Shown: one piece after another, positions 15,401 to 64,000 of the stretch | How positions within the stretch are numbered: the stretch's first letter is position 1 | Layout: every line of letters begins with the position of its first letter | Source of the DNA: Petrosia ficiformis | Lineage: Eukaryota > Porifera > Demospongiae > Haplosclerida > Petrosiidae | Assembly: GCA_947044365.1 (NCBI GenBank) | Contig: OX345637.1 | Coordinates: 8,142,343-8,206,342, forward strand | Length of the DNA: 64,000 nt | Direction: 5' to 3' | Notes under the pieces: model-generated | Seen by the model: only the letters and a program-made list of their open reading frames with translations | What the model was told of the DNA's origin: nothing | The model's database searches: none | Made by a program: the position numbers and the translations under genes

Positions 15401-18400
15401 TTCTGTGTACTCTGAATACTGGGATCTAAAAGTAGTGATGCACTGATAAGAGATTTTACCAATATTCTGATAAACCGATAATTGATTTAGATATGATAAC
15501 CGATACCGATCTGATATTATATCTATACCTTCTGGCTTCTGATTGTTTCAATGAAAATCAGTAATTATGAGTATCATAAAAACAATTAATGATGCTATAA
15601 TCACAAGAAATGAAGTTATTGGTGCACTTTTTAGGTACATCTGCCAGAAATAACCTATACCATTACAAAAAAAACAATGGCTGATAATGACCAATACCGA
15701 TTACCAAATCTGATATCAGTGCATTACTATCTAAAAGTGTGACTCCAATGTAGAACCTGAAGTACTCCTTCAAAGTTCTCATTGTTAAATACATCAATAT
15801 TAATAGTGTGTTTGTGTGCTAATATTGTATACTATTGTTGAGAGTAAGTAATAATATTTGTTTGTGTGCCTAAAACAGTACATTTTTAGCAAGTACATAT
15901 TACTGGGGCAAGCCTGAGCGAGCCCAACACTAAGGAGTTGGTTGAGAATTTTCTGTACGTACATATGTACACATGTATGTGTTGTACGTGATTCTATATG
16001 TTCTATTAAACTACGTTGATTTTTCAATGAATTTCAAATAGTGTTTGCATGGTAAGTTCAAATTGTGCAGTACATAAATTAAAATTTTGTATTAAAAGCC
16101 ATGCATGATAACTATGGATCAAGAGAGATTGAGGAAAAGAAGAGAGAGGAACATAGCTATACAAGCTGCAGAGACTACAGAGGAGAGAGAAGAGAGATTG
16201 AATTGATGGTACTGATAATCTGGTCTACATAATTTTTGAGTTCCTGTTGTGCTCTGCTAGTGTCATCAGGTGAAGAAGCTAATACTTACTCAACTTTAGG
16301 AGCATTTCAGGTGACACCACAAAAACAAAACCGAGAACTGTTGCATTTTGCTCTTCGATCTCAAATGTTCTAAACACTTGCTTTTGCTCAGCGTCAAAAA
16401 TTTGGTTATTCTAACGACACCTTCTCAGGCTCGCCCCACAATGATTGCATGCATGCAAGCATTCTCTAATATATTTTCATTATAAGCTCATGGTTCATAT
16501 TTGATCAGAAGTTCATGTACTTACATGTATAGTCTTATACAGTACATTATTAAGTACATGTACATATATGTATTTGTGTGTGAGGATAATTAGCGATCCA
16601 AATATTTGATCTTAAGAATGATATTATTAACGTTTCACTGAATTTTTATTACTCTGTAGTTTTTTGCAGTGCTTCTTTCAATATCTGGTATTGTCCTGTT
16701 TGCTTATGTTGATGGATTTGGTACAGCTAATACATGGAGTATAGCTTTGTCAATTGGTAGTGCCATAGGAGCTGCTTTATATAAGGTACACTATATTTAA
16801 TACTTATTAGTATAGTGTTATCAATTGGTAGTGCCATAGGAGCTGCTTTATAGAAGGTATACTATTTTTAATGAATATAATACTTAATAGTATAGTGTTA
16901 TCAATTGGTAGTGCCATAGGAGCTGCTTTATATAAGGTATACTATTTTTAATGAATATAATACTTAATAGTATAGTGTTATCAATTGGTAGTGCCATAGG
17001 AGCTGCTTTATATAAGGTATACTATTTTTAATGAATATAATACTTAATAGTATAGTGTTATCAATTGGTAGTGCCATAGGAACTGCTTTATATAAGGTAT
17101 ACTATATTTAATGAATATAATACTTATTAGTATAGTGTTATCAATTGGTAGTGCCATAGGAGCTGCTTTATATAAGGTATACTATTTTTAATGAATATAA
17201 TACTTAATAGTATAGTGTTATCAATTGGTAGTGCCATAGGAGCTGCTTTATATAAGGTATACTATATTTAATGAATATAATACTTAATAGTATAGTGTTA
17301 TCAATTGGTAGTGCCATAGGAACTGCTTTATATAAGGTATACTATATTTAATGAATATAATACTTAATAGTATAGTGTTATCAATTGGTAGTGCCGCCAT
17401 AGGAGCTGCTTTATATAAGGTATACTATATTTAATGAATATAATACTTAATAGTATGGTGTTATCAATTGGTAGCGCCATAGGAGCTGCTTTATATAAGG
17501 TACACTATATTTAATGAATATAATACTTAATAGTATAGTGTTATCAATTGGTAGTGCCATAGGAGCTGCTTTATATAAGGTACACTATATTTAATGAATA
17601 TAATACTTAATGGTATAGTGTTATCAATTGGTAGTGCCATGGGCCTCTGCTACTATAATTATGTAATGAATGTAATATTGTACATGTACACAGCTAATAA
17701 TATATATAATTATATAGTATACAGGTTATGTGCTATTGTTGTTTCTAAACATTTATTTACATCAGATTTTGCTATCAGCAACCCTTATAGGCCAAGAACA
17801 TATCCTGTATGAAATATGACTTAATGGTGTGTAATTTGCAATATTTAAATACATGTAATTGTATATACTATGCTACCATGGCAACCGTTAGATGTATATT
17901 ATTTTGCATATACACCTCACCAATAATTAGATGTATATTATTTTGCATATACACCTCACCAAATAATTAGATGTATATTTTTTGCATATACACTTCACCA
18001 AATAATTAGATGTATATTTTTTGCATATACACCTCACCAAATAATTAGATGTATATTTTTTGCATATACACCTCACCAAATAATTAGATGTATATTTTTT
18101 TGCATATACACTTCACCAAATAATTAGATGTATATTTTTTGCATATACACCTCACCAAATAATTAGATGTATATTTTTTGCATATATACATCACCAAATA
18201 ATTCAATTGATATATCATAATAATTATAATAATTATAAACCATGTTTAGTTGGTATATATGCCAAATACATGTACACCACCTGCTGCTGTTCAGAGATTT
18301 ATGTGCACATACCTATGGACCTTGGGTTATATCCACCTACCTCATGTGCATATACCTATGGATCTTGGGTTATATCCACCTACCTCATGTGCATATGCCT

Positions 18401-21400
18401 ATGGACCTTGGGTTATATCCACCTACATCATGTGCATATACCTATGGACCTTGGGTTATATCCACCTACATCATGTGCATATACCTAGATGGATCTTAGG
18501 TTATATCCACCTACCTCATGTGCATATACCTATGGATCTTGGGTTATATCCACCTACCTCATGTGCATATACCTATGGACCTTGGGTTATATCCACCTAC
18601 ATCATGTGCATATACCTATGGACCTTGGGTTATATCCACCTACATCATGTGCATATACCTAGATGGATCTTAGGTTATATCCACCTACCTCATGTGCATA
18701 TACCTATGGATCTTGGGTTATATCCACCTACCTCATGTGTATATACCTATGGATCTTAGGTTATATCCACCTACCTCATGTGCATATACCTATGGACCTT
18801 GGGTTATATCCACCTACCTCAAATTAAATTGTTAAAATAACGGTTAGCACAGTTACAAAAAATAGCATAAATTTCAACTTATTTTGTCATACAGGTTGTC
18901 ATGGCTATATGCATGATGTTACTATGATACTATGTGTACCAGGTAAAAAGTTACTATAAATTACTAGAATATGTTTTTGCATCCCTTTTGTTAGCCAAAA
19001 CGGCTAGATACAATCAGGTATGAAATATGAGTAGACCCCACCATGAAATAATACTGCTTAATGACTAATTGTTGAATCCTTGTAACTGTACTAACCGTCA
19101 ATTTTGTTTTTGCAGGTGGTAGGTATATCTGGTATATATATACACCTCCTAACCATGGTTTATATATTACTTATTGCTGATCATGTGACCTGTGACCAAT
19201 CAGAGTGCAAATAATGCATCACATGATTAAAAATTTAAATCACTTATTGTACACTTTTACGTGCAATAAGTTAGTTATTGCACACTTTGCTCAATGAAGC
19301 AGCTCCAGCAACAGTAGTAGTTCACCAAATTGTCAATAAATCACTTATAACACTTGACAGTGCATTATGTGTTTCAATGTAGCACTTGGGCAGTCAATAA
19401 AGGTCTCGTTTACATAACGCACTCACCTTCGACTCATGCATTATGTAGACTCAACCTTTATTGACCCGCCCTCGTGCTACATTAAAACACATAATCACAG
19501 TAAACTGTGTTATAACTATTACTTATATACTATGCTACCATGGCAACCATTAGATTGTATATTTTTTTGCATATACACTTCAAAAATAATTAGATGTATA
19601 TTTTTTGCATCACCAAATAATTCAATTGATAAATGATATATAATAATTATAAACCATGTTTAGTTGGTACATATGCCAGAAATTGTTAAAATAACAAATT
19701 TATTGGTTAGCACAGTTACAAAGAATACATAAATTTCAAATTGTCATACAGGTTGTCATGGCTATATGCATGATGTTACTATGATACTATGTGTACCAGG
19801 TAAAAAGTTACTATAAATTACTAGAATATGTTTTTGCATCCCTTTTGTTTGCCAAAACGGCTAGATACAATCAGGTATGAAATATGAGTAGACCCCACCA
19901 TGAAATAATACTGCTTAATGACTAATTGTTGAATCCTTGTAACTGTACTAACCGTCAATTTTGTTTTTGCAGGTGGTAGGTATATCTGGTATATACACCT
20001 CCTAACCATGGTTTATATATTACTTATTGCTGATCATGTGACCTGTGACCAATCAGAGTGCAAATAATGCATCACATGATAAAAAATTAAATCACTTGTT
20101 GCACGCTTTTGCATGCAATAAGTTAGTTATTGCACACTTTGCTCACCTCTACTAACAAAGCTGCTCCAACAACAATGATAGTTCACTAGATCATCAATAA
20201 ATCACTTATAACACACTTGACAGTGCATTGTGTGTTTCAATGTAGCACTTGGGCAGGTCAATAAAGGTCTCATTTACATAACGCACTCAACTCATGCATC
20301 ATGTAAACTCAACCTTTATTGACCTGCCCTCGTGCTACATTAAATCATGTAATCACAGTAAAGTGTATTATAACTATTACATCTTTCACATGCTAATGTA
20401 ATATATCTGTTTATTAGACTTTGCTAAAATGGAGAGTCAAAGAAGCTTCTCTATTTCAAATGGCATTTTTTCTATCAACCATTGGATTGTTCACTTTACT
20501 GGTATTCTGGCCTCTAGTTGTATTACTACATTTCACACGTAAGTATTATTTAATATGTACTGATTGTATGTAGGTATGTTTTCATAAAGAGAAGGGTTAG
20601 TGGGTGGGAGGGTGTTGGGCATGGGATTTTCTTTCTTCAGATTTTAGGTTGATTTGATATGCATGTCAAACAGTGTCACAGACAGTCACCAGTGAACTGT
20701 AGTAAACCCTATATACCCCTGGGGTGTGGATTATGATGTGTATATATGCTCTTGTCAAACGTCGGCTAGTAACTCACATTGTATTTCATTGTTTCCTTCC
20801 TGCTAAATCCTGTTGTATTGTCGAAGCATTTCAACCAGACTCCTCACACTTGCCATTATTATTGGTTTTAGTCCCACCTATGCAATTATTGATTGTCCTT
20901 TTTCTAATTGGATATAGAATTCTTCATTGGATAACTAGCAGATCCAGACATCTGATGTTACTCTAGTTTTAATTATAATTTAATGTAGAAACAATTTTTT
21001 CCTGTGGTTGTGTATACATATGTCACTTATTTCATGAATGATGCTGTAATCTGGTATGTGCATTCATGACTACATGACTTCCTTTTACTGTAATATAATT
21101 ATATTCTAAGTAATCTTTATCCTCGTATTGTAATGTTTGTTCTGTATTTCCAGTATAGTTATCAATTTCATCATTTATTTTACACAGATGCTGAAGTTTT
21201 AGTTGATGTTCCATGGAGCTACCTCTGTGGAAGTTCCATTTTAGGAGTCCTGTTTAACTTTGCAATCAATTTTGGTATTGCTTATACTTTCCCATTATTC
21301 ATTTCTCTTGGAACCATCATGGGTATACCTTTGAATGCACTACTTGATGCTGTAATCAGACATGTTGATTTAGCTAACTGGAAAATTACAGCAATGGACC

Positions 21401-25736: not shown

Positions 25737-27443
25737 TTAGAGACGGAGTTTCTTAATTTTCTCATCTCTCATGGCAGGAATGAGGCCCTTCTCAAAAACA
25801 ATAGACATCAAAACATCAGCATCTTCAGTGTCAGGATATTGATGTAGGGCCCATTTGATGTAGACAAGAAACTCATTCCAATCAATAAAGCCATCATTAT
25901 CCATGTCAAGTGCCATCAATCCTTTCTTAGTACGGCTACACCTGTAGCAACCAAAGTATGGAGCCATGAAACCATGGTAGAAAGAATCAAATTGGAGCTG
26001 CCCATCTCCTTTGCCTTCACCTTCCTCGCGGTTATCCCATTCATCCCATTCTTTACGAATCTCAGCAATTAGGTCGTCATGGTGAACTGCCTTCAATTCA
26101 GTGGCTGCAATGACTTCAGCCATTTTAGGTGTAAGTTTACCTCCAGATCGATCAAATAATATCGCAATTCCAGCCTCACTTTGGTATTCCTCCTTTCTAC
26201 CTTCGTGAAGATCTTGTAGCATTTTTTTTTTCATTTCCCCACAAATTTCATCATTGAATTGAGGATTCTCTCCAAATAGTTTTGTAAGTCTATCTTTGAG
26301 CATTTCAATAGTAGCGAGAGTTGTGATGCGATTCGGAGTTTCTACACCAAAGAATTCAGCCAAGTCAAAATCTCCAACACCCAAGAAACCAAAGACCAAA
26401 TCCACAGATCTTTCTCCATAAACTACTTGTTTGGGATGAGGTGGTTTCCCAGTTGTCAGTTTAGTAATAGCTATGGCTGCTTTCCTGAAGTAAGTGCAGT
26501 TGTACTTTTTAAGAATCTTAGTGTTACCCAAGCGAATAAGATTCATCATGGTAATGGAGGAACAGGCATGGCCCAAAGCAGCCCCCTCTTCGCACAAGCT
26601 AGCCCATACACCATCAGCTCCAGCACTGAGACAATCTAGTTGTGAGGCCGTTTGGAGATCCCACTTCTGGTGAATGTGAACCAATAGTTTACCATCTTTC
26701 CAGCCATTTTTATCCATGGTTCTTCGTAAACTGGCAGTCCATGCCTCCAGTTCTTCAGGAAGATACTCTCCGAGTGGATCTTCGAAGCAAAGAGCAAACA
26801 TACGACGGTTGGGTGGCAGTTGAGAGAGAAACTTTGTAACGGTGAGTATACGCTCAGGATACTTTTTCATTGCAATGGGAAGATCCCGGAAGTTGAGAAG
26901 GATTTTTGCATCTGGGGAGATCTTATCGAACACCCAGTTGATCCTCTTACGAAGAAGTTTACACATGTCATCAACAGTGAACTTTGTTCCCCATTCGCAG
27001 CTTTCATCAGCAAAATCGGCTTCAAAGAAGTTATTGATAAGTCCATATTTCTTGTTTTTCTTCAAACCAACAGGAATCTTGTCTGTTTCATACGTACCAT
27101 TCACAACTCCATCCTGAGATACCTCAGAGAAAGAGTAGAAGTTGGAAAAATCTTCACCTGTAGCTCTAAGGTACTCCACGAATTGGTCATCAACTCTTTT
27201 CATGTTTGCGAAAGAAGCAACAATGATGTCCTTGATGCCACACTTTTTAATTTCGTTATAAATATCGATCTTATTCTGCAAGGTGTGACTACGCAATTGA
27301 CCAACTGTACTCTCGCGAATCGAGTTGTCAAGACAGAAAAAATCGACATCTTTCAGCCTCTCTCTTTTTTGAATCCTCACATCTTCGATATGGCTTTTGA
27401 TTGTTTTTACTTCGTCACGGATGTCAGCATCGATACCAGCCAT
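25737..27443 (-). CDS. DRE-TIM metallolyase-like barrel fused to EF-hand, copy A
   Basis: 568 residues, one exon. Residues about 33-370 look like the HMG-CoA-lyase-like TIM barrel: LDNSIREST at 38-46 in the place of the (L)RDG metal/base motif, metal-type HIH at 256-258, then SAGADGVWASLCEEG and ALGHA at 273-293 in the place of the GADG..G.GN loop. Residues 420-568 form a Ca-binding tail with one canonical EF loop at 513-524 (D.D.DGFID.NE). The core Asp of RDG is Glu44 and the GN Asn is His292, so the reaction may differ from HMG-CoA cleavage; substrate unknown. No targeting signal is evident. A TATA-like TTTAAATA lies 43 nt upstream of the ATG. A broken near-copy is at 49.6-51.3 kb. I recall similar proteins in other invertebrates but cannot name them. 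Confidence 0.85.
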   Translation of the reverse strand: MAGIDADIRDEVKTIKSHIEDVRIQKRERLKDVDFFCLDNSIRESTVGQLRSHTLQNKIDIYNEIKKCGIKDIIVASFANMKRVDDQFVEYLRATGEDFSNFYSFSEVSQDGVVNGTYETDKIPVGLKKNKKYGLINNFFEADFADESCEWGTKFTVDDMCKLLRKRINWVFDKISPDAKILLNFRDLPIAMKKYPERILTVTKFLSQLPPNRRMFALCFEDPLGEYLPEELEAWTASLRRTMDKNGWKDGKLLVHIHQKWDLQTASQLDCLSAGADGVWASLCEEGAALGHACSSITMMNLIRLGNTKILKKYNCTYFRKAAIAITKLTTGKPPHPKQVVYGERSVDLVFGFLGVGDFDLAEFFGVETPNRITTLATIEMLKDRLTKLFGENPQFNDEICGEMKKKMLQDLHEGRKEEYQSEAGIAILFDRSGGKLTPKMAEVIAATELKAVHHDDLIAEIRKEWDEWDNREEGEGKGDGQLQFDSFYHGFMAPYFGCYRCSRTKKGLMALDMDNDGFIDWNEFLVYIKWALHQYPDTEDADVLMSIVFEKGLIPAMRDEKIKKLRL

Positions 27444-27485
27444 CTCTCACAGACTTTGGTCAGTAATGACTAATGAATGCGGCAG

Positions 27486-36083: not shown

Positions 36084-39000
36084 ATGAAGGCCATATATCT
36101 TATTTTGTTTGCAGTGTTGATCCCTGTATGGTGAGTTTGCAAGTGCAATATATGACTGCAACAATTTTGCATGCTGTCTTCAGACATTAGTCCCTGCTCC
36201 TTATAGTATTAAATATAGCCAGTATGTTGTATACTTGCATGCACTGCAGTATTATGTTTTGCATGTGTCCATAAATAACATAATTTCATATAATTATGGA
36301 GAAGAATATCTCTATGACTGCTTTGTTGCTTGATCATGAACTTTCCCTCCTAAATCTATAATCTTTGCTGAAGTGCAACAGCCTATTATAGATTGTGTAG
36401 AGTGTTTTTCCACTCTTCTTTTTAGGTTCTTAGCTGTGTAATGTTTACTTTTTAATTGATGAGCTAGAACAACTCAGTTTAAGTTGCAGTTTCTACAAGC
36501 TGCTTTCTTCCTGGTGGTACTGTATAACTTGAGTGGCAAATGATCTTTTATGTGACTTCCTTAACAATGTGACTCAACCACGTATTTGGTTGAAGCCATT
36601 TGCATGGGAGTCCATACAAATCAATGAGAGGAGGGAGTGTGGTATCACAGTAAAAATTGTTTGATTGAAGCCATTTGATTTTCTGTATGGGAGATCAATG
36701 AGAGGAGGGAGTGTGGTATACCATACCAGGCCGGCCAGCAAGACTATGTAGTATGCAATATAGTCTTGGTGGCCAGCTTGGTAATATAGGGCTGGAATGA
36801 TTAATCAATTAATCAATCAATATTGAAACTGAATTCTTCTGATTATTGATTATCAGACTGTGATATCAATTATACTATTTATTCCAAAAGACATACTTTT
36901 CAAAAATGCAACAGCAAATAATGTATGTGACAGGAAACCTTTTTGATCATCAAATGGGAGGAGTTTCCTGCATTAATTTACTTAATTGGCCTAATTACTT
37001 CCGTACTGTATAACTTGAGTGGCAAATGATCTTTTATGTGACTTCCTTAACAATGTGACTCAAATATTTAATCATAGGGATAGCCATCCTGTTGGCAATA
37101 AAAAATCCATAGTGCATCTGGTAAGTTAGTCTTACTGTCCAGCCGGGAGGGTCTTCCAAAATACAGGATGGACAGCAAGACAAGCAAATAGATTATGACC
37201 TCACCACGTATTTGGTTGAAGCCATTTGCATGGGAGTCCATACAAATCAATGAGAGGAGGGAGTGTGGTATCACAGTAAAAATTGTTTGATTGAAGCCAT
37301 TTGATTTTCTGTATGGGAGATCAATGAGAGGAGGGAGTGTGGTATACCATACCAGGCCGGCCAGCAAGACTATGTAGAGTTTCCTGCATTAATTTACTTA
37401 ATTGGCCTAATTACTTCCGCTGATTTTAATCGATTATCAGTCGATTTGAAGTTAGTGATAATCGATTTCAGAATCTCAGCTGATTCCCAGCCCTTTAAAA
37501 TATTTTGTTAAAGCCATTTGATTTCCTATATGTGAGTCCAATGAGAGGAGGGGGTGTGATATATAAATGCACAAATGCAATTAGCCATACCGTTAACTGT
37601 TCTATAACACTATATAGTATAGGCTTCATAGTTTCATTATTTTAATAGAATATTTAAGGAGTGGAAAAACAAATAGCAATAGGTGGTAGAGTTCAGTTCA
37701 GACATGAGATACATAGTCAGCAATGAATGACATCACTCAGTATAGGGATTTGGTTTCTTCATATGTCTTATTAAAGATGCAAACAACATAATGGTTATTG
37801 TGCTGCTAAAAAATATTTCCTTATATAAAAAAAATTATATTGAAGCAATTTTAATATAGTACAATTTATTTTAGTTACAGTGTAGCAGTATTTCCTCGTC
37901 TCCAAGATAAAAGTCCTTTTGCTATCAATGTTGGGACAGATGAAAAAAGTGTTACTGTTAATTTGAATGACCTACTACCACCAAGTACTCAGAAGGAAGC
38001 GGTGGACTTGGGAGATCTAAGATTAGGAATACTACACGAGTCCTTGCAGTGTGTAGAACTACTAACTGAAAATTCTATCAATTACAAGAGGGAGGATGGA
38101 CTGTATCGTCGTATTCCTGTTAAGCATGATATCACTGAAAACCAGTTTAACACTCTATTGGATGACAATCCTCTTGTCATAGTTCGTTTGGGAGAACAAG
38201 ATGATTTACACTCGAATGATAAGAAGATTTGTGGAGATAGTATTATACGATCACAAGAACAAGAATATGTGGATGTTTTAGTAAAAGAAGATTTACACCA
38301 AACAGATGAGCCAGTTGGTGTTGATCCTGATGCACGTTGTAATAGTCAAGGCTTATCTTTTGATGAAGATCCTGGAAAAGACATTCCTTATTTTGATAAT
38401 GTCCTCACACCTCCATTTTTTTCCCGTTTTGGCTTATCATCGTCAACAACAGTTGATCAAGTACCAGAAAAAGTCAAACTTTTAAAGAGGGATCCAAAAC
38501 GACCTCTATTTGGTTATGGAGCACACAAGTCCTTACAAGCTCTCCTTGTTGAACAACCTACATGCAGTCAGTCATCTTTGCGTACTAGTCTTCAAACTGC
38601 TGTAGAACTGGAATGGGCAACTCTGCCCCTATATCTAACTTCATTATATACCATAAAAAGTGGTGCCAACAGTGAAGGGGAAATTCGTGTTTTTAATGTT
38701 AGCCTTCAAGAGATGATACATTTTGGTCAAGCAAATAATCTACTCATTTCTGTTGGGGGTATACCAATCATCAATGCTTCAACAGCTCCTTCTTATCCTA
38801 CAAAAGGTCTTCCTGGTGGAGTTCTACAACATCTTCCAATCAGCCTTAAAAAACTGTCAATTGACCATGTCTATAGTACATTCATGGGAGTAGAGATTCC
38901 TCGAAACTCTAGCGCTGTCTACCCACCTATAATAAATGACTTGTACACTATAGGTGCATTTTATAAAGAAATTCTTTCTTGCATGAAATACCTCGGAAAC

Positions 39001-39552
39001 CAAATTTTTGCAAATGCTTCATTAGACAAACAGGTTGTATTTGATTGGCTTCCAAGTCGTGGTGTCTTATACCAAGTCGACAACTTGACGGTAGCTGAAA
39101 TGGCTATCAATGAAATTATTGACCAAGGTGAAGGAACAAGTCCAGTTGATCCAGTTGATGCATTGACCAATCAATATGCTCATTTCTACAAATTTGAAGA
39201 GATTGTATGTCAGAAAGGACTGATACCAGTTGGAAACATGCGTTATGCTTATCAAGGTAATCCAGTTCCCTTTAATGCAACCGGTGTATACAATATGGTT
39301 GACAACCCAAATAAAAATACTATTCCTCCAAACACTGAGTGTTACAATGCCACGAGAGAGTTCAACGTAAAGTATGTTACACTAATGAAAATGCTGGAGG
39401 AAACTTTCACTGGGAATCCGAGTCTAATTGGCAATGCTGTAAGTTACATGAAATATGTAATTCCACCAGCAGCCCAATATGTCGTGAAACTTCCCCTACA
39501 ACCTGGCAGCCCATACAATTGTGGTCCTGTATGGGATTTGGATTGGGATTGA
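36084..39552 (+). CDS. secreted protein with VioB-type ferritin-like domain
   Basis: Two exons: 36084-36130 (47 nt, phase 2, donor GTGAGT) and 37875-39552, giving 574 residues. Exon 1 supplies a signal peptide, MKAIYLILFAVLIPV, completed by CYSVA from exon 2; the frame runs open across the join. Residues about 60-235 are an acidic, unrecognised region. Residues about 245-480 match the ferritin-like domain found in VioB and related iminophenyl-pyruvate dimer synthases: AVELEWATLPLYL (E260, E262), LQEMIHFGQANNLL (E295, H298), then HFYKFEEI near residue 445, consistent with iron ligands of a four-helix bundle. Several NxT/S sites fit secretion. The reaction is unknown; an oxygenase or metal-handling role is inferred from the fold only. 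The intron contains a duplicated segment. Confidence 0.85.
36525..37420. repeat. direct duplications inside the ferritin-like gene intron
   Basis: 36579-36749 recurs at 37204-37376 almost unchanged (landmark GAAGCCATTTGCATGGGAGT). 36525-36580 recurs at 37007-37062, and 36963-37003 recurs at 37378-37418. The three blocks are shuffled relative to one another, so at least two duplication events are needed. Confidence 0.85.
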
Positions 39553-49571: not shown

Positions 49572-51271
49572 TTATTCGAGACGAAGTTTCTTAATTTTCT
49601 CGTTTCTCATGGCAGGAACAAGGCCTTTCTCAAAAACAATAGACATCAAAACATCAGCATCTTCAGTGTCAGGATATTGACGTAAGGCCCATTTGATGTA
49701 GACAAGAAACTCATTCCAATCAACAGATCCATCTTTATCCATGTCAAGTGCCATCAATCCTTTCTTAGTACGGCTACACCTGTAGCAACCAAAGTATGGA
49801 GCCATGAAACCATGGTAGAAAGAATCAAATTGGAGCTGTCCATCTCCTTTGCCTTCACATTCCTCGCGGTTATCCCATTCATCCCATTCTTTACGAATCT
49901 CAGCAATTAGGTTGTCATGGTGAACTGCCTTCAATTCAGTGGCTGCAATGACTTCAGCCATTCTAGATGTAAGTTTACCTCCAGATCGATCAAATAATAT
50001 CGCAATTCCAGCCTCACTTTGGTATTCCTCCTTTCTACCTTCGTGAAGATCTTGTAGCATTTTTTTTTTCATTTGCCCACAAATTTCATCATTGAATTGA
50101 GGATTCTCTCCAAACAGCTTTGTAAGTCTATCTTTGAGCATTTCAATAGTAGCAAGAGTTGTGATGCGATTCGGAGTTTCTACACCAAAGAATTCAGCCA
50201 AGTCAAAATCTCCAACACCCAAGAAACCAAAGACCAAATCCACGGATCTTTCTCCATAAACTACTTGTTTGGGATGAGGTGGTTTCCCAGTTGTCAGTTT
50301 AGTAATAGCTGTCGCTGCTTTCCTGAAGTAAGTGCAGTTGTACTTTTTTAGAATCTTAGTGTTACCCAAGCGAATAAGATTCATCATGGTAATGGAAGAA
50401 CAGGCATGGCCCAAAGCAGCCCCCTCTTCGCACAAGCTAGCCCATACACCATCAGCTCCAGCACTGAGACAATCTAGTGTGAGGCCGTTTGGAGATCCCA
50501 CTTCTGATGAATGTGAACCAATATTTTACCATCTTTCCAGCCATTTTTATCCATGGTCCTTCGTAAACTGGCAGTCCATGCCTCCAGTTCTTCAGGAAGA
50601 TACTCTCCGAGTGGATCTTCGAAGCAAAGAGCAAACATACGACGGTTGGGTGGCAGTTGAGAGAGAAACTTTGTAATAGTGAGTACACGCTCAGGATACT
50701 TTTTCATTGCAATGGGAAGATCCCGGAAGTTGAGAAGGATTTTTGCATCTGGGGAGATATGATTGAACACCCAGTTGATCCTCTTACGAAGAAGTTTACA
50801 CATGTCATCAACAGTGAACTTTGTTCCCCATTCGCAGCTTTCGTCAGCAAAATCGGCTTCAAAGAAGTTATTGATAAGTCCATATTTCTTGTTTTTCTTC
50901 AAACCAACAGGAATCTTGTCTGTTTCGTACGTACCATTCACAACTCCATCCTGAGATACCTCAGAGAAAGAGTAAAAGTTGGAAAAATCTTCACCTGTAG
51001 CTCTAAGGTACTCCACAAATTGGTCATCAACTCTTTTCATGTTTGCGAAAGAAGCAACAATGATGTCCTTGATGCCACACTTTTTGATTTCGTCATAAAT
51101 ATCTATCTTGTTCTTCAAGGTGTGACTACGCAATTGACCAACTGTACTCTCGCGAATCGAGTTGTCAAGACAGAAAAAATCAAGATTCTTCAGCCTCTCT
51201 CTTTTTTGGATCCTCACATCTTCAATATGGCTTTTGATCGTTTTTACTTCGTCACAGATATCAGTATCCAT
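49572..51271 (-). pseudogene. DRE-TIM/EF-hand gene copy B, frameshifted
   Basis: Nearly identical to copy A over the whole gene. One T is missing at about 50476 (CTAGTGTGAGG against CTAGTTGTGAGG), which breaks the frame just after HIHQKWDLQTAS, between the metal-type HxH motif and the GADG loop. The original ATG has become ATT; an Ile-to-Met change three codons later restores a possible start at 51271. The two halves are otherwise open (50474-51271 and 49572-50501), with the EF loop kept as D.DKDGSVD.NE. The few differences say the copy is young and recently lost. Translation would yield a 265-residue half-barrel, unlikely to work. Confidence 0.88.
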
Positions 51272-51340
51272 ACCAGCAATCTCGCAAAGACTTTGGTCAG
51301 TAATGACTAGCGCAACTTAAATAGTCGCGTATCTACCCAA

Positions 51341-52655: not shown

Positions 52656-55637
52656 CTAAGAACTCGTTGAGGTTTGTGTTGTCTTGTCATTTTCTTTTGT
52701 CTTCAGATCTTTTTGCAAGACATATGCATCAGGTGGATCAATACGTTTGTAATAATCTTTTTTTTCTCCTACAATCTTGAATCCTGATCTCTCGTAGAAC
52801 GTAATGGCCTCATCATTACTAACTTGAACATGACTAGGGGACAAATATAGCACTACATGTTTAGAGAATATCTATTACATTTATAAGTTTCGTACAGGCA
52901 ACCTCTGGGAGGGGATAAATGTCACATGTAATAAGGAATGAAGTTGTCTATTATGGCACATGTAATTTTGAAGTATACTGTAAAGTTAGTTTGGTAATCA
53001 TTTTTCATTTTATAGTTATAAATAAAGATTCTATCCTCCAGTTTGTTCAGTTGCCTCACAGATGTTTGTGACCAGAATTGATTTATCAACTTCTGGATGC
53101 TCCACATCTAAAGTACACTGTTCAGTTTTACTCTACCCACAATAAATTCTGTGTGAAACCCTTATAGATTCTATCACTCACAGATATATGCAGTCTAAGT
53201 TTCCATCTTCCTTTGCAATTTTCAATACATGATTTAACATCAAAGTACCTTAAAAAAACAGTAAAACAATATATCAATCTTTAGCTATCACACTCTATAA
53301 TTTAATATACACCCTATCATTGATGTTTTCACGATATGAAAATTGTAACAACACATTCAAATTGTACTCTCATTTATTAGTAAATAAGTCATTCATATTT
53401 TAATTTAGGCTTTACATGTAATATAGTATAATGTAGTTTAATGCCATGAAGTTAATACAATTACTGTAATACAAATACAAATACAAAGTAACTAAATAAC
53501 AAAGCAAACAATTGAAACTGACATACACCGAAAAGAATTCATAGGCGATTCTAGGATTTGACTACTGGTCAGGCACAGTAATAAAAGGAACGGTACACAA
53601 AACATGTAGAAACATTTTGAGCATAATTAATTATTTATGAGGGGTGTGGTCAATCAATAAGGTCTATAAATACCTTACATGTTGCTTATCTGGAGACATG
53701 CAAGTGATTTTTTTTGCAAGTTAGACGTTGCAATTTGTGTCTACTATAATTACGTGTTTCAGCTCCACCCAATGCGTTAACTTGGGTGGAGCCAGTAAGC
53801 ATTATTGATGAGTGGGCAAAGAAAAATGAGCTGTGTATAAATAGTCACTTATATTTAATTATATATAATTACAATAAAGTTTGTTTAGAAAATTTTAGTC
53901 AAGCGCAGACGCTACCAGGCCTGATCCTAGAACTGCCTATGGAAGAATCATATTGATATGATCATGTATGGGAAATTCATCTGATCATTCTGAACTCAAG
54001 TAATGAACACTTTTCTAAGATCTAAGACTCTAAGTGAATTTGAATGACATTTAGTTTTCTATACACCTAATCTTGTTTGTGATTTAGTTAATGGTCATAC
54101 ATATTAAAACACATCCTGCCAGACAGAATTGAAAATGGTTATTTTCATGTGCAAAAGTTGCAAATCTCCTACCTCATAGGTGACAGAAATCACAGAACCA
54201 AGGGGACCTTTGGGGGGGGGGAGGTCATGCTCCCCGCAATGTTTATTATAAACCTAAGAAATACAGAATCCGCAGAGATATCTCTTTGAGTTGTGGCCCA
54301 TCTCCAAGTGCACAAGAAGTGCTCAATCTTCCAAGTAGGCTAAATCACCGATACTGTTTATCCAGTATATACTTAAAACTGTCTCAGTAGCCTATATATG
54401 TATTATGTGAGAGGTAGTTAATTTATTTAAGAGGTGGTTAATTTATCTGAGAGGTGGTTATTCCCGACCAGTGCCAACCAGTGTGGGCAGAACACTGCAT
54501 TATAATAGCATGTAGAATCCAACCACCACTCTAAATATCCTGAGCAGAACACTGATAATGTGTAGTCTGATTACATCTTGTAATAATTATTTATTGACGC
54601 AGTTTATTATTAGTGAACATTTAATTGACCATGCTCCTCATGAATAATTAACGACTAAACATTTTTGCTTTGTCTCTATAATATGTTTCTTCGCCTATGT
54701 TCCACTTATCTCCTTAATCTCCCTTCAAAAATCACAACCATCTCCTATCCCTCTCTCCATTCATTCATTCTAAATTCCTATGCATGTATCCAACCAAGGA
54801 TAAGAAAATGGGCCATTCGGTAAATGATAATTTCAATAAAACACTACTAAATATGGTATCCAAGAGGAGTAACTACTGCCACACCTAAATACCCAATTTA
54901 GTTGTGTTCTTAAGCAGAATAGCAAGTGTTTAATAAGCAATCAATCATTTATTTAATGTTCCTTTTCACTTCCACAGCTATATATATGGTATCACTCTAT
55001 ACCTCCTGTCTTTTATTTTCATCCTCTCAACTTATCACTATCCTAAATGGTATCACTGTACATACACATATACCCTATCTTTCACTTTCATCCTCTCAAC
55101 TTATCACTATCCTATATGGTATCACTGTACATACACATATCCCCTATCCTTCACTTTCATCCTCTCAACTTATCACTATCCTATATGGTATCACTGTACA
55201 TACACATATCCCCTATCCTTCACTTTCATCCTCTCAACTTATCACTATCCTATATGGTATCACTGTACATACACATATCCCCTATCCTTCACTTTCATCC
55301 TCTCAACTTATCACTATCCTATATGGTATCACTGTACATACACATACCCCCTATCCTCTGCTCTTACCTATTCCTAATCTTCTATATGGTGCTAAACATC
55401 CCAGTGTCATAATGTATAGTTTCCTCAATTCTCCTTCAGTTTCAATACGACAACACACTCCACCAACAACAACATCATTAAAATATGCTGTGAATATGAA
55501 ATTGTATGTATGTTTGCATGACAAAAAGTATAACTTTACATATGTATGTATGTGTATCATTTTGTGTGTATAGTATGAATTTAGTATTAGCATATGTATT
55601 ATGTACATTGTACCAGTATTATATTATATACATGTAT

Positions 55638-57500: not shown

Positions 57501-59685
57501 AGAAGAGGGAACTGGTATGATTCTGAAACTTATTTTACATTTACTTATTGATTGTTTTTATTTTAGTCATAACTTCTAGTTGTTAGGGCCTAGGCCCACA
57601 GGCCTATCTTGCAAAGCGAAGGGTGTGGCTCGCCAGACTAACCTTTGGATACACAATTACTTGGAAAAGGTATGTAATTATATTTATGCGTATTATATTT
57701 GCATAAATCTTTGCCTGATATCGTACAAACCTTTGTAACCCAAGTTGTGTTTCCCCTGAAATTCAATTGAAGGCTTTTAACATTTTTGTGTTCAGTCTTA
57801 TTGCTGTACAATGTAGCTCACCAGTCAAACCCTCATAGTGATGTAATGCCTTATTGTATACTATTAATTATTTCGAGTATATATATAAGTGTAATAATTA
57901 TACACAATGCCTAGTATTACTAACGTTCCTCTTAATGATGTTTTTAAAAATTTTAACCTATGGTTTATACTATCCATATTATAGGACATGTGAATTTGAG
58001 TAATTTGTTTTATATTATGTCTGAAATTGATGTATTGTTTTTCTGTGTTCTGAAATGATGATCATCAGGGTAATCCATAACTGTCTATTACCACTCTTAC
58101 CTTTAGTCTACTTTTAATTGCGTGTAGCAACTTTAGGCACTAACATGATAATCAATAAAATTAGTACATGTTATATATTATTTTTTAATCATTAATTTAT
58201 ATTGGGCATATTAGGCATGGCTCAGAAATTCACTAAAAATAAATGCATGCTATATCTAAATTCAAGCATATAAAAATCGCTAAATTTAATCTCTTATTAA
58301 AATTGATTTATATAATTTATTACAATTAATCAATTTTCACTGCAAAACACTTCTGCATGATTGAAACATTTTCTAAAATACTGTTTTGAGGAACCATGAA
58401 GCAGGAAAACAAGTGGTGATTTAATATTAGTTTTTATATGTAAAAGCTCTGTTTATCGCCAATATAGTAAAAATATTTGCTACAGTTTGGATAGCATGAA
58501 TATATTAAATACTGCTTTACATGTCAGCAAGTTATAATAACATTCATCTCCTTTGTAAGTACAATTTACAATGAGTATGAATACTGTTGTCTTTGTCAGT
58601 ATAATAAAGTTTTTATTGTGTCCAAATAAAGCAACAACCATTTTACAGTGCATGTCTGTAGCAATTATATATAGATCTCCTTATAATGCAGAAACACTAT
58701 AATTAGCAATTTTATCAAGGCTTGTTTGCTTCTTGTGTACTGCACATACTTCACTTTGGGCACAAAAGATAAGAGCGAGCCTAGGAATTTTATTCTGGGC
58801 CCTAAAACAAGGCCTTTCATACTAATTAATTACTCACAAATTGGTTTAGTCACATACATGTCACTTGTGTGCTTCATTAATTTGACTGTGTTGTTTTTGT
58901 GTAAATTTGACCTTCAGTTTTATATAGAATAGTCTTTCAGGCAACTGGAAACAGCAGAAATATTATTGTAGAATGGAAATGGGAAACAAATTTTGAGTGG
59001 AAATGGGAAACAAAATTTTGAAAATGCTAGCCGATACTGTACTTTCAAACACTCACCTTGGTGCTTTCTTGCAACTAACGAAGCATGGTTTTGACATATA
59101 TATATATATATAGCTTTCATAGAAGATCTTCTGTGTAACTAAATGACTTAAAATTCTGCGCTGTTTAAAAATGTGGAAGTCATACAGGTGAGTTGATCGA
59201 TTACTGCTTTCATGCTCACTCAGTATCATCTTCAAGTATAATTGGGCAGTATTGTTTAATGTCCACTGAACCCAGCCCTTTGATCCTTTCCTGTTTCCAT
59301 TCCCACATTTCTGCCTTTTCTAGTTGCCCTAGTGTCTCAACTGTGTCCTTTAAACTGATCTGACTCCAGTTTATTAGTTACAAAGGCTTAGATCTGAGAC
59401 AGTCAATTACCATTAACAGAGTATTAATGTAAGAAATGGCATTTCAATGTTGGTATACCCTGGTATTTATGGTCAGAAAGTGAATGTTATTATTATGGGG
59501 AAACATTGCTGAAGTCTAAAAGAGATCACCTTTTGTGCTAGCTACAACAAAGAGCTTCTAGAAAATATAATTTCCATAAAATGAAATTGTATTGATCAAA
59601 ATAAAAACATATACATCAGATTGTACATGTAATTGTATTATGGTTACATTTGAAAATTCAACATCATTAGTGTTCACCGACTATC
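57500..59685. other. spacer upstream of the micro-exon gene
   Basis: AT-rich DNA with no supported gene. 58955-59020 has a short repeat (TGGAAATGGGAAACAAA twice). 59047-59082 is a solo MITE end. The promoter of the gene beginning at 59686 should lie in the last few hundred bases, but no clear box is visible. Confidence 0.5.
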
Positions 59686-62600
59686 ATGGCTGCACATGTA
59701 AGTGGATATATTTCTCATTCACCTATCCATTATTATTCTACTTCACAATGTGTCCTGAATTCTGCATTTCTGTATCATAACTATGATGATGAACATTTCG
59801 TTTGTTAGTTGGTGAGTGTAATATACTATCCTTTAACTTCATGACAATACAAATTATTTATACACAAAATTTATATCTTGAAATTGGTCCTCTCCTTACA
59901 TTTCATCGTATGTATGCATGATGACATATCAATAGTGGGTGAGTTGACTGTTAATTAGTTTTCATAAGATTATGTATTTCTAATTCCAAAGAGCCTTTCG
60001 TATGATAATGTTAACTATTAATTTGTGTGTGGTTTCACTGATGCAATAATGTTGATTGAACTGTGTATTATTAGTAATATTATTTTGATCCATGGAGCCT
60101 TTGATGGTGTCATAATGAATATTTCGCATGATAGAAATTACAACGAACATTAAATTTTAATAATAGGCACATACTAGTTATGAGGGGAATCAACCACTAA
60201 TTGAGTGAAAATGACCACACCGTTAATGAATAATTAATAAGATACAAAACATTCCAGCAGCATGTTCATTTTCACCCTCAATCTGAAATATTCTCTGCTG
60301 CCTATGCTTAGTGATATTGAATAAATTATGAAAAATGCTCATAGGGATATTATATGTTATATGTTATATACCTACAAAATCATAAATTCTTTTATCTTTT
60401 ATTCTTCGGTTTTGCATGCAATATGATGACTAACAAATCACTCAATTCATTCATTAGCTGGTGAGTTTATCTTATAACTATTATTTTCCTGACATCATGC
60501 ACATAAAATTGACATATTTTTGTGTGTCTTGAATCTGTTGTCTTGTGTATATTATATATTATTTTTATTAAATAATGTGCACATACACATTACAATGTGT
60601 TCTGAAATGTACAGCATGACAACACTAGAGATGAGTGTAATTTATTCATTGCTAATTTCTTCATGACAATATTGATTTATTTATTGTTATATTTCACATA
60701 CAATGCCTCCTGAATTCTGTTCTCTTATAATACATGACTGTCACTATTAGAGAGTGAGTATAATCATTAGCTGTATTATATATTCTTAAATTCTCTCCTT
60801 TTTTATATGATTAATTATTTTGTGACTGCATTAGCAAGTGAGTATAATCATTAGATTATTAATTTCCATGATATGAATAATTTCTATCTTTATACTTCAC
60901 AATGTATCCTGAAATCTGTTCTCTCGTTCATCCTATGATGACACAGGATGTAAGTAATACTTAACATTTATTTCATTTCGTTTTATTTTTATTATTATGA
61001 TTGTGTCCTGAAAACTGAACTCTTGTGCTTAATTCCTGAATGCTTCATTAGTCTGTGAGTGTAACTTATTAATTACTCATTTTTATGACATCATGAATTT
61101 TATTTACTATACTGCAAATTGTATCCTGAAATCTGTTCTCTTCTATTTAACGGATGATAAATCTTTACATATATTAGTATGTGAGTGATTAAACAATTCC
61201 AATAAATGAGAATTTTTAATTTTATATCTCCATAATGTACATGTATATTTATGCTGCAATTTGGTTCTCTTCCACTTCTGTTATTATGATGCATTATAAT
61301 TCATTAGGAAGTGAGTCTAATCTCAATTTAATAACACTATTTTATTCTATCTTCATAATGTTTTCTAAACTTGCAATTTGGTCACATCTTGTGGTGACAT
61401 ATCACTATACAATCAATAGAAAGTGAGTATAATTGTTTTAGTTATAAATTTACAAATACTATTACTCTACTTCACAATGTGTCCTGAAATGTATTCTCTT
61501 GTACTTCTGTTTCACTACGTCATGAGGCTGTAAGTATAATTACTATTTTTATAACACATTACAAGTATCTCCATTATGTGTCCACATGCATTGATTCATC
61601 TTATAATGACATATCTTCATTAGATTGTGAGTGTATTTTCTTCATTATTAACTTTATGAAATGAATATTTCTTTTATTATACACATCACAATATGTCTTG
61701 AAATCCATTTTCTTGTACTGTATGAAAATATTACTTCACCATTTTTTCCAAAACCTTCTCTTGTATTTCTATATATAACACATCACTTCATTAGCAAGTC
61801 CAAGTGAGTTTATTTTATTTTTGATATAATGATTCACAATATTTATGTTCCATTCTATCATACTGTTGTACATTTACTCTTTCTTGTAATGGCATATCAC
61901 TATATTTTAAAGCAAGTAAGTGTGTAATCTTTTGATATATTACAGACATTTTTTACTTTATAAAATGCTTTGTGAATTGTGTTCTCTTGGATCTTGTTTC
62001 ATTTTATAATGATGGGTCACTACATTGATTAGTTGGTGAGTACACTGCAAAAACAGTTTAGTTATTTCAACCAGTCAGTTGGTTCCCTCAATTGCATTTC
62101 AAATATCCCGTTACTGCTCAATTGAGGTGTTGAAGAGTAGGCCAGCTTAACTTATGGTGTTGGAATGTTGTTCACAGTGACATGTAAATTAGTCATGATT
62201 CACAGTTTACAGTTCAGTACTTCCCACTATAAGTTTACATAATTACTGACATTGTATCACTATATAATATAGTCACTGTGAACACAACATTTTAATACAA
62301 ACTGGCTTACGTTCCAACAGCAGTATGGTGTGAAAAGGTATATTATTAAATTGGCATACAATTGAGGTAACCAACTGATTGGTTGAAATAACCAAACTCT
62401 ATTTGCAGTGTATATAATCTACATAGATGAATCATATATACATGTATAAATTATTATTATTATGCTACATGTATTATACTTTATATTATGCAAGTGTCAT
62501 GAGGAGTGGTTTTGGAGGCGAAAATCCATATAATTATTTGTATATAATTATTTGTATAATGTAATTATACTTATTTATATTTTGCATTGTGTCCTGAAAA

Positions 62601-64000
62601 TTTGTTTTGTTATGGATGACATATCTCTACTTTCTCTAGCCGGTGAGTGTGATTTATTGACTATTCATAAACAGTTCTGTTTTATATATTTTCTACACCA
62701 TTTCACACATCATTAATTCATTAGAAGGTGAGTGTGATTAATTATTAATTTCATGACATAATAATGTTTTTAACTTCACAATATTTGCTGAAATCTGTTA
62801 ACTGTTTTTTTTGCAATGACTCGTCTACATTTATCAGTTGGTGAGTATAATTTGTTAATGTCTTAATAATTATTTTCTTCTTTTACAATGTGCCTTATCC
62901 ACGATACTGAATGTTGCATTGCTACATGTTTTAGCCGGTGAGTTAAATTATTGCCTATAATTTTGTTATATTCTTCATAACCTGAAATCTCTGTTTTGAT
63001 TCCCGCCATTAATTATTTTGTGACATCATGACTTTTAGAGAGTGAGTGTTTTCTAATACCTATTAATCTTATGAAATTATTACTATTTTTACCTCACAAT
63101 GCATGCTGAAATCTATTGTACTTTCGTGCCATGTTTACAATAACGTGTCACTACATTTTGTTAGTCTGTGAGTCATTTTATGATATTAAATGATTTTTAT
63201 CATTAAACTCTAATCCATGTACTAACATCTCTTCTGGTCTATTTATAATGATATTTCTCAGAGAGTGAGTGGATGTAATTATTCATTTCATGACATTACT
63301 AATATTTTCATTATTTAATCCTAAATTTGTTCTCCAATCTGATTGAAATCTGTTTTTGCGTACCTCTGTTCCATCACATCATCACTTCAATAGCGAGTGA
63401 GTGTTTATCATTGTTACCAATTTGCATTTTTATACATCATTCTCTTCCTTTTTCTCATATGGCATTGTTATACCATCTTTATAGGAGGTGAGTCCAATAA
63501 CGTTTAACACTCTGACTATCTAAAATGTACTTTGAAAGTTGTACTTGTTCTGTTGCAAATCCTATGTGTTCTACTTTCTTTTTTTTTGGGAGAAATTTTG
63601 CTTTTCTTACTAAATATTATTGTACAACATAATGTCAGTAAGGTACATATATGCATTTAAATTTCTCTCCCCAGTATTCACTTGAAGATGAAGATTTAGA
63701 TGAAGCCGAAGATGAAATTGAAAGTAGTTGATCATTAATTTTTGTTAAAGTGTCATGTAAATACTTCCCTTTTTAATTTTCTACAATACAGCTTATCGAA
63801 GATGTCTTTCTGAAGGACAACTTGATGTCGCATATGCTCGTATCATGTTACTTGGATCTGCAGGTGCAGGGAAGACAAGTCTGAAACGTGGACTTATGAA
63901 CTTACCATTTGATTTCAAAGGCAGTAGCACCATTTTAGCTGAAATCCAGTCAGTGAGACCTGTGGGATACGAATGGGTAAAAGTTGGAGAGGAGCAAAAT
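59686..64000 (+). CDS. P-loop protein with putative micro-exon-encoded N-terminus (5' part)
   Basis: ATG at 59686 (A at -3, G at +4), exon ending 59697 at GTAAGT and encoding MAAH. Then 24 putative micro-exons, then ordinary exons 63675-63723 (YSLEDEDLDEAEDEIE + 1 nt) and 63792 onward. The latter encodes a leader and the Walker A LGSAGAGKTSLKRGLMNLPF (GxxxxGKT at about residues 68-75 if all micro-exons are used), then STILAEIQSVRPVG; it runs off the window. The P-loop part resembles GTPase/NTPase domains of ROCO- or NLR-like proteins that are multiplied in sponges and cnidarians (from memory), so signalling or immunity is possible. The large exons join in phase 1; the micro-exon part is phase 0 throughout. 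The ATG exon could also splice straight to 63675 in frame. Micro-exon use is a hypothesis; the P-loop exons are firm. Confidence 0.6.
59698..63674 (+). repeat. tandem array of intron-like units with 3-nt putative exons
   Basis: Units share GTGAGTGTAAT at the start, CACAATGTGTCCTGAAATCT and TTCTCTTGTACTTCTG in the middle, ATGACATATCACT and CATTAG at the end. Between AG and GT(G/A)AGT sit (first base): TTG 59809, TGG 59936, CTG 60458, AGA 60751, CAA 60835, GAT 60947, TCT 61052, TAT 61178, GAA 61308, AAA 61420, GCT 61527, ATT 61624, a 9-mer CAAGTCCAA 61795, CAA 61913, TTG 62033, CCG 62640, AAG 62725, TTG 62838, CCG 62935, AGA 63039, TCT 63165, AGA 63262, CGA 63394, GAG 63485. Intron lengths between them are mostly 81-129 nt; the long ones (519, 290, 168, 604) contain decayed units or a transposon. 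None of the triplets is a stop. Confidence 0.85.
62043..62410. mobile_element. MITE inserted in the micro-exon array
   Basis: 368 bp, ends CACTGCAAAAACAGTTTAGT and the near-exact inverse (arms of about 50 bp), flanked by TA at 62041-62042 and 62411-62412. It landed 5 bp after a micro-exon donor (GTGAGTA), which stays intact, and lengthens that intron to 604 nt. Confidence 0.9.

Follow-up and report, generated by a model that had tools for sequence, protein, structure and literature searches.

Putative arrays of one-codon exons separated by copied introns upstream of Roc-COR genes in the sponge Petrosia ficiformis

In schistosome micro-exon genes (MEGs), many very small symmetrical exons stand in a row and have been proposed to serve protein variety (PMC4350168). 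Aphid megacycle genes contain more than 100 microexons, and bicycle exons are mostly of phase 2 (PMC9168663). Single microexons of 3 bp occur in homothorax and troponin T of Drosophila and in NCAM of rodents (PMC7392893), and microexons of 1 nt occur in plant APC11 and VPS55, the donors of VPS55 being conserved as GTRAGT (PMC8831610). Here we analyzed an array of 24 putative micro-exons, 23 of them a single codon long, in a 64,000-nt stretch of the demosponge Petrosia ficiformis (assembly GCA_947044365.1, contig OX345637.1; hereafter the window). The array, designated W, lies upstream of an open frame of the Roc-COR (ROCO) family.

The predicted gene resembles the schistosome MEGs in its succession of numerous very small, symmetrical exons. 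It differs from the MEGs in that nearly all of these exons are single codons, the introns between them are copies, the codons are hypervariable and only the N-terminus is involved; nor do very small symmetrical exons make up most of its coding region, the array contributing 26 codons to a predicted protein of 971 residues. Bicycle exons exceed one codon in size. The homothorax, troponin T and NCAM exons indicate that animals can splice exons of one codon; there they are isolated, whereas here chains are predicted. In coding minisatellites, TAL effectors and variable lymphocyte receptors (VLRs), array units recombine and the protein is changed in frame. The present arrays differ from all of these in that it is the intron that is repeated and a single codon that varies. 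As in the bicycle and megacycle genes, many small exons share one phase, but this is phase 0 and not the phase 2 of internal bicycle exons, and chains of one-codon exons are not described in the accessible portion of that source (PMC9168663). The plant microexons are likewise ultra-short, but the excerpt describes them as conserved, with at most two adjacent microexons (PMC8831610), whereas those of the array are variable. In the open-access literature on microexons, sponges, arrays and recombination, we found no description of chains of one-codon exons.

The array in the window and its gene

The window corresponds to C2:8142343-8206342, and the genome searched comprised 191 Mb in 29 contigs. 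An earlier note on this DNA had described 24 sites at which an acceptor AG is followed after 3 nt (9 nt once) by GTGAGT or GTAAGT. A pattern count over 59686-63723 bore this out: on the plus strand, between 59809 and 63487, AG-NNN-GT[AG]AGT was present at 23 sites and AG-9nt-GTGAGT at one. Among the other AG-to-GT spacings from 0 to 30 nt on this strand, there were two sites at 0, three at 1 and one at 5 nt, the rest being zero; the three 1-nt sites are presumably the AGA triplets, which are equal in number, AGAGAGTGAGT being readable both ways. On the minus strand of the same region, no such site was found at any spacing of 0-30 nt. In 400 simulations with a second-order Markov model, the mean was 0.18 sites and the maximum 2, against the 23 observed. 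This control, together with the spacing and strand counts, ruled out chance or base composition as the source of the sites. Genome-wide, the single AGNNNGTGAGT motif showed no excess (7323, against 7132 in a control read backwards); it is the clustering of this motif, not its number, that is unusual. The apparent conservation of the W sites is partly circular, because they were chosen by the motif itself.

The features of the predicted gene are as follows (window coordinates).

59686..59697, plus strand, predicted first coding exon ATGGCTGCACAT (M A A H), donor GTAAGT; a possible start lies at 59671 after an acceptor-like AG
59809..59811, plus strand, one-codon exon TTG
59936..59938, plus strand, one-codon exon TGG
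60458..60460, plus strand, one-codon exon CTG
60477-60540, 60558-60610 and 60659-60724, intron-model matches in the intron of the decayed unit
60629..60631, plus strand, decayed unit CTAG-AGA-TGAGTG, donor one G short, inside a 290-nt intron; recognized by eye and absent from the list in the earlier note
60751..60753, plus strand, one-codon exon AGA
60835..60837, plus strand, one-codon exon CAA
60947..60949, plus strand, one-codon exon GAT
61052..61054, plus strand, one-codon exon TCT
61178..61180, plus strand, one-codon exon TAT
61308..61310, plus strand, one-codon exon GAA
61420..61422, plus strand, one-codon exon AAA
61527..61529, plus strand, one-codon exon GCT
61624..61626, plus strand, one-codon exon ATT
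61795..61803, plus strand, three-codon exon CAAGTCCAA
61913..61915, plus strand, one-codon exon CAA
62033..62035, plus strand, one-codon exon TTG
62041..62412, no strand, probable insertion whose inverted arms of 62 nt are 87% complementary, in the longest intron (604 nt)
62640..62642, plus strand, one-codon exon CCG
62725..62727, plus strand, one-codon exon AAG
62838..62840, plus strand, one-codon exon TTG
62935..62937, plus strand, one-codon exon CCG
63039..63041, plus strand, one-codon exon AGA
63165..63167, plus strand, one-codon exon TCT
63262..63264, plus strand, one-codon exon AGA
63394..63396, plus strand, one-codon exon CGA
63485..63487, plus strand, one-codon exon GAG
63675..63723, plus strand, predicted acidic exon YSLEDEDLDEAEDEIE, donor GTAGTT
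63792..64000, plus strand, first part of the Roc-COR exon (Pfam), which runs on to 65845; Death-domain exons lie beyond the window

Joined together, the pieces of W spell MAAHLWLRQDSYEKAIQVQQLPKLPRSRREYSLEDEDLDEAEDEI and then continue in phase into the Roc-COR exon and further exons, the exon joins being predicted; one of the spliced junctions would spell GCACATTTGTGGCTGAGACAAGAT. The triplets and the joined reading first stated, MAAH-LWLRQDSYEKAI-QVQ-Q-LPKLPRSRRE-YSLEDEDLDEAEDEI, as well as the in-phase run into the acidic exon at 63675, were recovered in this predicted reading, in which all array exons are of phase 0 and consist of whole codons. In the Roc-COR exon, Pfam identified Roc (9.6e-10) followed by COR-A (1.5e-17), both over the cut-off, in the order that defines Roc-COR proteins. 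The frame 66982-67386 matched the Death domain over the Pfam cut-off (1.2e-6), as in Death-domain ROCO proteins, and a second Death match, in the frame 66160-66432, fell just below it (2.6e-4, 21.5 bits, cut-off 22.6). These Death-domain exons are predicted to be joined to the Roc-COR exon. Among the 120 related protein records listed, many start at or near the Roc exon, and Amphimedon queenslandica is the sole named species.

All 25 donors, that of the ATG exon and those within the array, were GTRAGT (partly through the choice of motif), compared with one of six in the downstream ordinary introns as placed in this analysis. Such uniformly strong donors suit constant inclusion, and they speak against the array being a combinatorial splicing device, in which any subset of the phase-0 exons of 3 nt could be skipped to give many isoforms per gene. 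That every W array exon consists of whole codons would suit such a device, and in schistosome micro-exon genes very small symmetrical exons are said to be employed to this end (PMC4350168). We consider it unlikely that the array works as a device of this kind, which would in any case be compatible with the splicing of the triplets as one-codon exons.

The introns of W are 81 to 604 nt long. Of the 25 introns, 20 supplied their interiors, stripped of the splice signals, for a profile that is free of motif circularity. Within the 64-kb window it gave 23 matches at E<=0.5, all inside the array and covering 21 of the 25 introns, including introns 4, 13 and 16 from outside the training set. Introns 3, 17 and 24 were not matched by it, intron 25 was matched only at E 1.1, and in the surrounding 283 kb nothing further was found at E<=1. 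Most or all of the W units thus appear to be copies of one ancestral intron. The median identity of the aligned introns was 47%, compared with 40-42% for shuffled sequences; the copies are old, very diverged and almost saturated. The splice signals have outlasted this divergence, with 24 sites intact and one decayed unit (60629) seen by eye. The earlier note had called the sequence between the sites a tandem repeat: the profile agrees that the units are copies of one intron, but these are very diverged, and Tandem Repeats Finder listed no repeat of the array unit in the window. An ordinary satellite was ruled out for W, since the copies recognized by the intron model are close to saturation while the adjoining splice signals are intact. 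A contrast to the array is provided by a homogeneous 141-nt minisatellite at C2:8267318-8267741 with AG-11nt-GTGAGT in every copy. The neighbourhood of W also contains AG-15nt clusters with spacings of 20 and 40 nt.

Further arrays and the Roc-COR genes

Genome-wide searches for motif pairs returned 626 places, versus 610 in the control read backwards, and, in a second search, 464 versus 378, the controls being inflated by GTGA repeats. The places listed from the second search, 100 of the 464, cover C1 and C2 to 11.5 Mb, and the figure of 464 was not used as an array count. By position and intron sequence, 95 of the 100 were assigned to array loci and 5 were isolated. Besides W, five arrays were delimited.

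Array A, C1:10.8645-10.8715 Mb, minus strand, 30 one-codon exons with GTRAGT donors and 35 with looser donors; preceding exons ATGGATGAG and GAACATAAT
Array B, C1:13.0988-13.1103 Mb, plus strand, 59 one-codon exons and 58 introns of 81-93 nt
Array C, C1:10.9578-10.9628 Mb, minus strand, decayed copy of A; 11 one-codon sites with GTRAGT donors, plus a single exon of 9 nt
Array D, C2:6.312-6.326 Mb, minus strand, 18 one-codon exons
Array E, C2:11.4883-11.4963 Mb, plus strand, 39 one-codon exons, one with a GTTAGT donor

When the six loci were pooled, 164 of the 183 sites with an exon length of 1-30 nt had a length of 3 nt, and 10 of the remaining 19 had a length of 1 nt, mostly through AGA-triplet overlap. 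In B, there were no sites at any length from 0 to 30 nt other than 3. The Markov means were 0.23 for A (30 observed) and 0.35 for B (44 observed), and the opposite strand had 0 sites. All 35 one-codon exons of A have G as the third base, and positions 1 and 2 vary freely; the final G of an exon would pair with U1. Blocks of codons are repeated in E. A cluster at C1:2.505 Mb was rejected as an array, with only three 3-nt candidates in 0.35 kb of a stretch without a long frame.

At E<=0.01, the W intron model had 18 matches in D and the A intron model had 37 in E, and between the W and A models there was no cross-match (best E 0.43). There are accordingly two intron families common to different genes, W with D and A with E, and the intron copies are both tandem and common to paralogous genes. 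Pattern places with the W intron type also occur at C2:6.146-6.148 Mb (minus strand), about 15 kb from the closest listed Roc-COR match. Array C differs from A by 6.5-12% mismatches over three blocks, and its Roc-COR exon lacks about 0.6 kb. In this copy, the donor GT is gone in two units, one exon is 4 nt long, and 12 array exons are recognizable compared with 36 in A. In A, by contrast, no unit has apparently been lost and 34 of 34 introns are <=140 nt, a comparison that is a single case and in which the A units were found through their donors.

Paralogous Roc-COR open frames lie downstream of W, A, D and E on the same strand. The Roc-COR sequence of D is 78% identical to that of W over 674 residues, and that of E is 75% identical to that of A over 577; Death-domain exons are present in the D gene as in the W gene. 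The A match contains two TAA over its whole length, which probably result from a splitting intron. In a genome protein search, Roc-COR matches were found at at least 65 places (77 matches); 65 of 512 first-look candidates were scored, and statements on the absence of a nearby match refer to this partial list. For 73 of the 100 places listed, a Roc-COR match follows within 10 kb on the same strand, and for none is there one within 10 kb on the opposite strand; the other 27 belong to B (15), C (3), the group at C2:6.146 Mb (4) and the isolated places (5). Viewed from the genes, 13 of the 23 Roc-COR places within the listed part of the genome have same-strand pattern places at this distance upstream. 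The interpretation put forward in the earlier note, namely that the triplets are one-codon exons, is supported by this position of W, A, D and E, by the 3-nt spacing and by the lack of stops among the triplets, the splicing being predicted.

Diversity of codons and introns

Among the units of each array, we compared the diversity at exon positions 1, 2 and 3 with the mean of the aligned intron core columns. Over-long introns were set aside, and 9-nt exons were excluded from the triplet counts, except for the last codon of that of W in the diversity count.

Array D: positions.54,.76,.62; introns.042; core columns reaching the lower of positions 1 and 2, 1/119; introns used, 16/17
Array B: positions.74,.70,.56; introns.090; such columns, 0/83; introns used, 58/58
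Array E: positions.65,.70,.35; introns.137; such columns, 0/108; introns used, 34/38
Array A: positions.73,.76,.00; introns.291; such columns, 0/122; introns used, 34/34
Array W: positions.77,.76,.68; introns.494; such columns, 2/102; introns used, 20/23

In B, D and E (and in A), diversity at codon positions 1 and 2 greatly exceeds that of the introns within each array. Where two units agreed completely over the 20 nt preceding and the 36 nt following the triplet, the triplet differed in 16 of 19 pairs in D, 259 of 327 in E and 31 of 117 in B.

Rather unlikely, in our assessment, is the explanation that the codons are old and protected by purifying selection and that gene conversion has homogenized the introns, the codons being diverse only by contrast. 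W and D share one intron family, yet the D introns are about 96% alike (shared columns) and those of W nearly saturated, so homogenization goes array by array, as this explanation would have it. Conversion tracts stopped by selection should, however, leave a gradient towards the codons, and in E and B the donor-side columns beside the triplets are invariant: 16 of 30 donor-side columns in E, including the first seven (acceptor side, 20 of 23), and the first six, d+7 to d+12, in B. On the acceptor side of B and in the flanks of D, the pattern near the triplets is less clear. Old protected codons would also not give the codon strings of W and D, which look unrelated by eye despite 78% identical Roc-COR sequences.

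No stop was present among 153 triplets in five loci (C excluded), with 4.43 expected from the position frequencies, and the GC content was.42-.72 in exons compared with.27-.31 in introns (W, A and B). Both findings argue against the triplets never entering mRNA, with the array being a long first intron or leader made of a satellite with AG-NNN-GTRAGT, for recursive splicing or as a decoy. Recursive splice points exist, and the homogeneous 141-nt minisatellite nearby bears a comparable motif. A recursive point, however, needs no 3-nt insert; its acceptor abuts directly on the donor, whereas 3 nt separate AG and GT at 23 sites of W. Moreover, a satellite would not hold the length of 3 and the splice signals while the W introns came near saturation, and the W triplets are in phase with the next exons. 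We regard this explanation as very improbable.

Several points weigh against the splicing of the units as one-codon exons, or against the hypervariability of the codons. In protein databases, transcript support for the W gene was not found, the matches looking like genomic open frames only. The high read-backwards controls rob the genome-wide pattern counts of weight. Donors sought loosely were not all GTRAGT (30/35 in A, 44/57 in B), and 10 of the 23 Roc-COR places (8 on C1, 2 on C2) have no listed pattern place upstream. Exons linking the array to Roc-COR were not found in D (gap of about 3 kb) or E (about 0.5 kb) and were placed in A by eye only, and start exons were not found for B, D and E. 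Near B there is no Roc-COR match among the scored candidates; a ZU5-like frame (Pfam E 0.2, under the cut-off) and a Death domain (1.8e-5) lie 3-5 kb past this array, and it is our guess that B is linked to these.

As to the codons, W alone cannot show hypervariability, because its introns are almost saturated. Without gapped alignment the contrast shrinks, the flank mean and maximum being.483 and.76 in A,.154 and.59 in B, and.623 and.74 in W. Where both whole introns of a B pair are identical, the triplet is shared in 23 of 32 pairs and different in 9; unit pairs are, in addition, non-independent because units are copied in blocks. Of the 4.43 expected stops, 2.33 come from W, 0.27 from B and 0.00 from E, the units being block-copied, and the zero-stop margin is modest at best.

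Elsewhere in the window, the product of the open frame at 37855-39552 contains a ferritin-like domain (Pfam, 1.1e-42). An open frame of 569 residues is present twice, at 25737-27446 and 49572-51316 (both minus strand), the second time as two overlapping frames, and each copy is partly overlain by a 247-residue frame on the opposite strand. A tandem repeat with a 69-nt unit (4.9 copies, 98% matches) is present at 55017-55357, and the open frame at 18250-18759 is built from a short repeated motif.

Proposed mechanism and its meaning

Taken together, these findings make it probable that the units are spliced as one-codon exons that build the N-terminus residue by residue, with other codons in the arrays of paralogs and with copied introns that permit turnover in frame. 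Each unit would consist of one intron and one codon, the latter spliced as its own exon. Because an array has introns copied from one another, whole codons could be added, removed or moved by unequal crossing-over or by conversion, and the frame would always be kept. Selection for change, or some mutational bias, would keep the codons different. The outcome would be an N-terminal peptide, some 18-60 residues long and rapidly turned over, ahead of the GTPase module. This tip would likely be a variable recognition or regulatory part in an immunity-like family, which is the weakest step of the proposal.

More broadly, we see an even chance that the arrays are codon-by-codon diversification cassettes, in which introns serve as homologous spacers, recombination shuffles codons in frame and selection drives the codons apart. 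They would provide a germline-diversified, perhaps also splice-diversified, peptide tip in an early animal, for a large branch of a Roc-COR family that bears Death domains.

If transcripts confirm this architecture, a protein segment is encoded at the lowest extreme of exon length, with runs of as many as 59 one-codon exons (array B), and the arrays would test how a spliceosome manages when exon definition is unavailable. Exons of this kind would escape ordinary gene prediction. The arrays would also reveal a new route to variable protein tips, with introns serving as recombination handles and each step changing a single residue while the frame is kept. The setting is a Roc-COR family for which this sponge genome has 65 places or more, in which the W and D genes have Death-domain exons, a module type linked to innate immunity.

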